Assembly: GCA_026421185.1 (NCBI GenBank)
Contig: JAPKCH010000019.1
Location: 1-32,799 of the forward strand
DNA from: Dehalococcoidia bacterium
Lineage (GTDB): Bacteria; Chloroflexota; Dehalococcoidia; Lucifugimonadales; Lucifugimonadaceae
Length of the DNA: 32,799 bases
Direction: 5' to 3'
The position numbers and the translations under genes were made by a program. Of this stretch, positions 14,346 through 32,799 are shown piece after piece; positions within the stretch are counted from its first letter, which is position 1, and every line of letters starts with the position of its first letter. The notes under the pieces were generated by a model. The model was not told the origin of the DNA and did not search any database. It was given only the letters and a program-made list of their open reading frames with translations.

Positions 14346-15101
14346 GGCAATTATCTAAGTAGTTCACTGGTACAACCGCATCGGACATGAGCCCGGTCAG
14401 AGGGGTACTAGCGATTAAGTGAGTGTTATTAGAGATCCTAAGAAGTTAATGCATCACTTGTTCAAAGCATTCAACGAATGCCCGGCGTAAAACTATTATT
14501 CTAATAAAATAGAAAAAAGTGGTGCAGTTTAAATCGAAATGTGAGTATACAGCAGAGAGTGCACTAGTCCGCTAGGAATTAGGCTGCTGAGTCGATGTCG
14601 GATACTCGTTCATTCGCCGAACAGCAACTCATCTAACATGGATATTCGACTAAATCTTAGGCCTTGCGTGAAGGTGTGCAGCTAGCGAGTAGCGCAAGAG
14701 ATGAAGACTTCTAGACGGATTCACCGGTTTCAACTGAAGGTCCTGAAGTCGTACGTATCGCCATCTACCGGCGAAGCACTTCCGTTCGGTATCGATACAT
14801 ATACCCAATCTAATGAAAATAAACCCTCGGAAGAAGATGACATGTATTCCGGTGCGTGTTTTGATCTAGTCGCTGCCGCTCTTGCAGATATATCGGGTAG
14901 TGCGTCAACGATTGAATCTGAACGCATTGCATCTCTCAGGCATCTAACAATTTAAACACTCGAAAAATACAGTGTGACAGGCGATTGCTGAAATGCAGCA
15001 GCTTTACAGGCGAAGCGCCTATCGACACAAATGCCTAATGCTTCTAAACTTTCCAGTAGGTAACCACTTTGGGCGTATACGATTCAGCGGTGTGAGGAAA
15101 C
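14346..15101. other. Long intergenic region between the divergent argJ and thioredoxin-reductase-like genes
   Basis: No gene recognised apart from a weak short open frame at 14701-14955. There is an A/T-rich tract near 14490-14518 that could be part of the argJ promoter, and a small perfect hairpin AGGCG-aag-CGCCT at 15008-15020. Given the decayed genes elsewhere in the window this may be further decayed sequence, but I could match nothing. Confidence 0.4.
14701..14955 (+). CDS. Possible small protein, unrecognised
   Basis: 84 codons from ATG to TAA, with ordinary codon choice but only a weak GAG next to the start. The product has a basic N-terminus, a stretch SPSTGEALPFGID and an acidic middle. 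There is no signal peptide, membrane segment or known motif. The opposite strand is also open over most of it, which weakens the case. It could be a remnant or chance. Confidence 0.2.
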   Translation: MKTSRRIHRFQLKVLKSYVSPSTGEALPFGIDTYTQSNENKPSEEDDMYSGACFDLVAAALADISGSASTIESERIASLRHLTI

Positions 15102-16097
15102 ATTATCGGCATCAAGCAAGTTGACGTATTAATTGCTGGACAAGGTGCGGCCGCGTTCGCAGCTGGGCTCTATTCATCTCGTTATCAAGTAGAAACACTG
15201 ATAGTAGGAGAGCAGTTTGGTGGCGAAACTGCCATCGGCGGATTAATAGAAAACTATCCTGGCCAACCTGACATGGATGGCTTCGATCTGATGATGAAGT
15301 TCAAAGAGCAGTGCGACAATCTCAAGACTCCAATAGTGTCTTCGAACTTGAAGACTGTTGAAAAGAATGGCGATGTCTACAGAGCCGTTCTTGAAGATGG
15401 CATCGAAATAGACGCCATTTCAATAATCCTTGCAGTTGGTCGTGAACGTCGAAAGCTTTCCCTTCCCAAAGAAGAAGAATGGACTGGAAACGGCGTTTCG
15501 TATTGCTGCACTTGTGATGCCCCTTTGTATCGAAATAAGAAGGCTGCAGCGGTTGTCGGCGGTGGTAACGCTGCGGTTGAAGGTGCCGTTCTTCTCGCAA
15601 AATACGCTGAAACTGTTTATTTGATTTACCGACGTGATGAATTGACTCGACCCGAGCCAATTCTTCTCAAGGTTCTTCATCAGACCGATAACGTAAAGGT
15701 TCTCTATTCGACCGAAATTACTGAACTTTTAGGCAGTGATGAATCGGGACTTACGGGAATTCGAGTCAACAAGTCGTGGGAAGGCCAGGACGAACTAACT
15801 ATCGACGGATTGTTCGTTGAAGCTGGTGCAGACCCTCGACTCGATATTCCAAATCAACTCGGTCTTGAAATCAATCCGAACACCGGTGAAGTGCATGTTG
15901 ATAAGGGGTTAAACACATCAGTCGCAGGTATTTATGCTGCGGGTGATCTAACTGACGGTACTGAGTTGAAGCAGACCATTACGGCTGCATCCCAGGGAGC
16001 TATTGCTGCTCTATCTGCGTATCAGCACATCATGGAAGTGAAGTCCGGATGGCAGGATGCTAAGTCGTCCGCCCCGGCTGGCGTTTCAGGCGACTGA
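15102..16097 (+). CDS. Thioredoxin-reductase-like FAD/NAD(P)H disulfide oxidoreductase with a non-canonical start
   Basis: Probably passes electrons from NADPH through FAD to a redox-active disulfide. Numbering from ATT 15102: FAD-binding GQGAAA at 13-18, ENYPGQPDMDGF near 52-63, redox centre CCTC at 135-138 (Cys135 and Cys138), the second Rossmann motif GGGNAA near 152-157, and the C-terminal FAD motif GIYAAGDL with QGAIAAL. The total of about 331 residues is normal. The first ATG (15273) would remove the whole FAD-binding strand, so translation must begin upstream. The frame is open only back to 15096, after a TGA at 15093, and has no ATG, GTG or TTG before the Rossmann motif. GAGG at 15094-15097 is placed well for ATT 15102 or ATC 15105. 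I infer one of these rare starts; a sequence error or recent mutation is the alternative. Confidence 0.82.
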   Translation: MIGIKQVDVLIAGQGAAAFAAGLYSSRYQVETLIVGEQFGGETAIGGLIENYPGQPDMDGFDLMMKFKEQCDNLKTPIVSSNLKTVEKNGDVYRAVLEDGIEIDAISIILAVGRERRKLSLPKEEEWTGNGVSYCCTCDAPLYRNKKAAAVVGGGNAAVEGAVLLAKYAETVYLIYRRDELTRPEPILLKVLHQTDNVKVLYSTEITELLGSDESGLTGIRVNKSWEGQDELTIDGLFVEAGADPRLDIPNQLGLEINPNTGEVHVDKGLNTSVAGIYAAGDLTDGTELKQTITAASQGAIAALSAYQHIMEVKSGWQDAKSSAPAGVSGD

Positions 16098-31756: not shown

Positions 31757-32799
31757 CTAGGCTTCGATCGTCACGATTCCGGGAGTGCTGCTACTTCCGG
31801 ACACCTTGCCGACCAACTCACTGTAAAGTGTTTGGTTAGCAACTAAACACTTTACAAGTGCGTCTGAGCGTTCTTCTGGAACTGAGATCAGCATGCCTCC
31901 AGATGTTTGTGCGTCGGCGAGAACCATGAACTCGAACTCAGAAACGCCTTCTCCTAGAACTACTTTCCCTTCAAGTGATTCCATGTTGCGAGCTGTTCCG
32001 CCTGATACCGATCCCGCACGCGCTAATTCCAGTGCGCCGGGAAGAATTGGAATATCAGACCACCGCACCGTCGCCGTTGTTCCACTTGCCTTCATCATTT
32101 GTGAAAGATGACCCAGTAGTCCGAATCCGGTCACATCAGTGGCTGCGTTCACGCCAACTTCGATCATGGCGTCGGCTGCGCCCTTGTTTAGGGTCGCCAT
32201 AGACTTCACCGCTGCTGCGATTGATTCTTCGGGAGCAGTTCCTGCTTTGCCAGCAGTTGTGATCACGCCCGAACCGATTGCTTTGGTGAGAATCAGAACA
32301 TCGCCCGGTTGTGCGTTTGCGTTGGTGATTTGCTCTCCGGGAGTAAGTACGCCAACGGCCGCTAGACCGTATTTTGGCTCTTTGTCATCGACAGTGTGAC
32401 CGCCGATGATCAAGATTCCAGCTTCTTCAGCTTTGGCCTGTCCACCTTCGAGGATCTTTGCAATAACATCTGGACCGAGATCCCGAGGGAAGGCTGCGAT
32501 GTTCAGCGCTGTGATCGGCGTGCCGCCTACTGCATATATGTCGCTGAGAGCGTTTGCGGCGGCGATTTGTCCGTAGTCGAATGGGTCGTCTACGATAGGG
32601 GCGAAGAAGTCATTTGTGAGTACGATTGCGACGCGGTCGTTTATCCGGTAGATGGCAGCGTCATCTCCGGTTTCGGTTCCAACCAGCACGTTTGGATCGG
32701 TGATGGTTGGTGTTGGCAGCCTGCCCAAAACCTGGGCAAGTTCACTCGCACTGAGCTTTCCAGCTCAACCGGCGCAGGTTGCCAGTTCGGTTAGTCGTA
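31757..32799 (-). CDS. selD: Selenide, water dikinase (selenophosphate synthetase), probably a selenoprotein; 5' end beyond the window
   Basis: Makes selenophosphate, the selenium donor for selenocysteine, from selenide and ATP. The visible part has about 347 codons. The frame has no proper start at 32728 (a TTG that is an internal Leu): it continues upstream as LTELATCAG, TGA, AGKLSASELAQVL to the window edge. This matches the family's N-terminal LT...GC..K...L. The TGA is exactly at the catalytic Cys (three residues before the conserved Lys), where many SelD proteins carry selenocysteine. Further marks: DPNVLVGTETGDDAA, TNDFFAPIVDDPFDYGQ, NALSDIYAVGG, GGHTVDD, DVTGFGLLGHL and TSGGML. A SECIS-like hairpin follows the TGA. 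Conventional gene callers would truncate this gene. Confidence 0.93.
31822..31856. repeat. Near-perfect 35-base palindrome inside selD
   Basis: TGTAAAGTGTTT (31822-31833) is the exact reverse complement of AAACACTTTACA (31845-31856). One G-T wobble and three more pairs extend the stem to 16 bp with a 3-base loop. It is inside the coding frame near the 3' end, encoding part of KCLVANQTLYSEL. Confidence 0.85.
32720..32740 (-). promoter_or_regulatory. Candidate bacterial SECIS element of selD
   Basis: Read on the minus strand, CUUGCCCA, loop GGUUU, UGGGCAGG: an 8-bp stem with one G-U pair. The loop begins 32 bases after the UGA. Bacterial SECIS hairpins have a small apical loop starting with G (GGU in E. 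coli fdhF) and lie about 16-37 bases after the UGA as I recall; this fits. No bulged U like that of fdhF is evident. Confidence 0.7.
32765..32767 (-). other. In-frame UGA, probable selenocysteine codon of selD
   Basis: TGA 13 codons before the apparent TTG start at 32728, in the same frame. Flanking residues TCAG and AGKLS fit the SelD active site on both sides, so this is a recoded position rather than a true stop. Confidence 0.85.

Follow-up and report, generated by a model that had tools for sequence, protein, structure and literature searches.

An in-frame UGA lies within what reads as a selD gene at the right edge of this contig, and the question is whether the codon specifies selenocysteine (Sec), marks a decayed or misread gene, or has taken on another meaning throughout the genome. 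The window, the whole stretch of 32,799 nucleotides that was analysed, is the entire contig C83, and its right edge is the contig end. Judging from the sequence, it almost certainly carries a 5'-truncated selD that encodes a Sec-containing selenophosphate synthetase, the bacterium being a marine member of the SAR202 group of Chloroflexota with Candidatus Lucifugimonas as a relative.

The truncated selD frame and its active-site codon

The frame and the two active-site codons considered here are as follows.

31757..32797, minus strand: selD (selenide, water dikinase), with its 5' end cut by the contig edge; 346 residues between the contig end and the TAG stop when the UGA is counted as Sec.
32774..32776, minus strand: Cys codon TGC, three residues 5' of the Sec, giving CxxU; read directly from the sequence.
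32765..32767, minus strand: UGA predicted to be read as Sec, residue 17 (the E. coli Cys17 position), from the 3u0o alignment and the TGA kept in relatives.

The assignment of the frame to SelD is well supported, as the TIGR00476 (selD) model spans all of it at 370 bits (cut-off, 125) with exactly one internal TGA, and the cut-off of NF002098 is also exceeded. With Cys substituted for Sec, the frame scores 376 bits against NCBIfam, and E. coli SelD (3u0o) matches it at 250 bits. Read on the minus strand from position 32799, the edge of the contig is TA CGA CTA ACC GAA CTG GCA ACC TGC GCC GGT TGA GCT GGA AAG CTC AGT, and its translation runs R-L-T-E-L-A-T-C-A-G-UGA-A-G-K-L-S-A-S-E-L-A-Q-V-L. 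In the phmmer alignment, the UGA residue pairs with Cys17 of E. coli SelD, and the conserved Lys20 follows it as U-A-G-K. The initial annotation had placed the UGA inside the selD frame at the catalytic Cys, which is confirmed by the TIGR00476 match, the alignment to Cys17, and the conservation described below, and it had correctly put a conserved Lys three residues after the UGA. The CxxU pair that it pointed out is also present in the sequence and has already been published for SelD (PMC2398784).

One alternative is that selD is a pseudogene here, or that a TGC or TGT was misread as TGA in sequencing, with a protein made from the TTG at 32728 or none at all. Consistent with this, the open reading frame under translation table 11 starts only at that TTG, which the initial annotation had singled out and which is indeed the first start-like codon 3' of the UGA. 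A start at this position, however, would leave the protein without its catalytic residue and conserved Lys, and the remainder of the selD frame is intact. In close relatives, an ATG is found six codons 5' of the edge Arg (M-S-D-K-P-V-RLTELATCAGU), so the Sec would be residue 17 and the TTG is not the start of selD. The first six codons, bar two bases, are lost to the contig end, and the true start, an ATG, is predicted to lie about 16 nt past the contig edge. Automatic annotation would place the selD start wrongly.

Conservation of the UGA and the predicted SECIS hairpin

The TGA is shared with relatives assembled independently. A SelD over the cut-off was found in 35 of the 40 related genomes, and because every such match has exactly one internal TGA, the UGA in selD is not a product of chance. 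Among these independent assemblies is the closed genome CP046147, from the SAR202 bacterium Candidatus Lucifugimonas marina JH1073, which is in culture (PMC10444878). The SelD of JH1073 is 85% identical to that of the window, and its locus, along with those of Chloroflexi/Dehalococcoidia MAGs, is among the closest named SelD loci. Set against this recurrence, a pseudogene or a sequencing error is highly improbable, and we can predict that the UGA at 32767-32765 is a genuine selenocysteine codon at the SelD active site.

Within the order, the internal TGA is the same active-site codon in every relative parsed by the active-site motif search, which left 20 of 110 SelD loci unparsed, and the Cys of CxxU is kept in nearly all of the parsed order-level relatives. 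SelD is present in 168 of 245 genomes of the class, and nearly all of the matches listed have one TGA. The same UGA occurs in SelD homologues of Clostridia and Marinimicrobia.

Nine SelDs without an internal stop appear among the matches listed for the class (G232, G261, G211, G238, G130, G224, G200, G181, and G132), and these are candidates for Sec-to-Cys replacement. A separate case is the single-contig genome G027, with two TGA-containing selD matches (G027:C1:3386799-3387722 and G027:C1:15765-16688), both near the record ends; the gene may truly be duplicated, or the record may still contain the overlap of a circular sequence.

Downstream of the UGA, a candidate bacterial SECIS (bSECIS) element was found.

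32720..32740, minus strand: predicted bSECIS hairpin, with an 8-bp stem CUUGCCCA/UGGGCAGG and the apical loop GGUUU; from fold and covariation.

This hairpin lies inside the 57 nt 3' of the UGA. The SECIS element of E. coli fdhF has a bulged U, whereas this hairpin has none. All the published bSECIS constraints (PMC13188914) agree with what we found, namely an 8-bp upper stem, a 5-nt loop starting with GG, and a UGA-to-loop spacing of 32 nt. A comparable hairpin arises in 0.65% of synonymous shuffles of the region, although in overall stability the hairpin does not stand out, being equalled by 28.6% of the shuffles. Over 27 distinct homologues, 81.5% of the cells of the helix are paired, compared with 24-46% when it is slid, a control that somewhat favours the helix, as the window itself served to define it. 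The same homologues contain 22 double changes in the helix, and 0 of 500 shuffles reach the observed covariation score. The consensus fold restores only four of the eight hairpin pairs, and some homologues drop pairs or fold in another register.

Selenocysteine machinery and other uses of UGA in the genome

The source genome consists of 117 contigs (2.13 Mb) and is 96.6% complete. Two genes for Sec synthesis and insertion are found in it over their cut-offs, selA (518 bits, contig C1) and selB (313 bits, contig C58). The tRNA-Sec family model recovered no true selC from this genome; its top match (53 bits, contig C32) was rejected as selC, as ARAGORN calls it a tRNA-Ser(GCT). In JH1073, ARAGORN calls a tRNA-SeC with the anticodon TCA in the selC region, and this region matches contig C35 of the source genome (3356 bases) up to its last base. 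The last 53 bases of C35 are the first 53 of the JH1073 tRNA-Sec, identical at 53/53 nt with the TCA anticodon included. The contig end halves the tRNA-Sec gene at L164:2475-2527 (the end of G000:C35). We can predict from this match that selC is present, with its 3' half missing from the assembly, and the cut at the contig end is the reason why the tRNA-Sec model misses it. The presence of selA, selB, and selC elsewhere in the genome, as the initial annotation had predicted, is therefore borne out, selC as a 53-nt fragment. Among the relatives, a tRNA-Sec match of >60 bits accompanies Sec-SelD in 32 of 35 genomes (the exceptions are the source genome, G015, and G026), and none of the five related genomes without an over-cut-off SelD has a match over 60 bits.

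Another in-frame TGA was found in the gene for the formate dehydrogenase alpha subunit, FdhA (G000:C55:4050-6062, L166; 784 bits), where it is the only one and sits in the motif NCSRT-U-HAPTVAGM (SRTUHAPTV). We take the SRT-U-HAPTV position to be the known Sec site of FdhA, and the gene is predicted to be a second selenoprotein gene in the genome. The claim that this organism reads UGA as Sec is supported by the selA, selB, and selC genes, by the putative Sec-containing FdhA, and by the conserved UGA of selD.

An open frame that spans a UGA would by itself fit any genome-wide reassignment of the codon (to Trp or Gly, for example), but UGA is the stop of 6 of the 28 ORFs examined in the window and hence is not globally reassigned, the internal UGA of SelD and FdhA falls at the catalytic Cys/Sec position, and the genome has dedicated Sec machinery, which makes this explanation practically negligible.

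With the codon read as Sec, the genes and the RNA structure suggest that the UGA at residue 17 would be decoded by tRNA-Sec and SelB together with the downstream hairpin. The Sec would stand in for the catalytic Cys in helping to turn selenide and ATP into selenophosphate, as is established for the family, and the selenophosphate would then be used by SelA to form Sec-tRNA for SelD itself and for the Sec-containing formate dehydrogenase. We infer from sequence data that Sec is actually inserted and that SelD would be enzymatically active. SAR202, a widespread ocean group, would be equipped to decode UGA as Sec, at least for SelD and formate dehydrogenase.

The selenouridine enzyme YbbB was looked for in the genome and not found, and the SelW-like protein of the genome has no UGA in its gene and is apparently a Cys form. 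A second recoding site seemed conceivable at a UGA 5' of a thioredoxin-reductase-like gene (ORF at 15273), but was discarded, as the gene starts in relatives at an ATG that follows this UGA. This gene (window 15096-16097, plus strand) has an ATT where all 11 of the genus relatives inspected have an ATG start, the context being TGA GGA AAC ATT compared with TGA GGA AAC ATG; the ATT could mean that translation begins at a rare AUU, that the start is shifted, or that the sequence is wrong here.

Relation to known selenophosphate synthetases

Sec in the SelD of other bacteria, to which the initial annotation had referred, is well documented. Mariotti et al. (2015, PMC4561486) put the share of Sec-encoding genes at 19% of the prokaryotic SelD genes that they detected, and in all of these the Sec occupies this position. 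The window encodes the same enzyme as the Sec-SelD/SPS2 family (TIGR00476; PMC4561486), with Sec at the same single position, and nothing of substance differs. It is an ordinary Sec-SelD from an already known selenoprotein family, with SAR202 Chloroflexota as the host. Since SelD is common among marine selenoproteins, being one of the most widespread (PMC2398784), the finding is incremental. Our literature search found no paper describing Sec use in SAR202 Chloroflexota.

The active site of E. coli SelD reads CGCK, whereas that of this SelD reads UAGK, with Cys19 replaced. The 2008 GOS selenoproteome paper (PMC2398784) already described CxxU SelDs in marine metagenomes, at about 5.6% of the single-domain Sec-SelDs of the GOS data, and the motif seen here is the same as in those proteins and in the Geobacter NifS-SelD (PMC2398784). 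The text of that paper makes no mention of Chloroflexi, and the present gene links CxxU to the SAR202 lineage. We tentatively suggest, as a possibility on the doubtful side, that SAR202-group Chloroflexota ancestrally had, and have almost fixed, a CxxU Sec-SelD without the Cys two residues after the Sec; if so, the resolving thiol in the catalytic cycle would differ from that of E. coli-type SelD.
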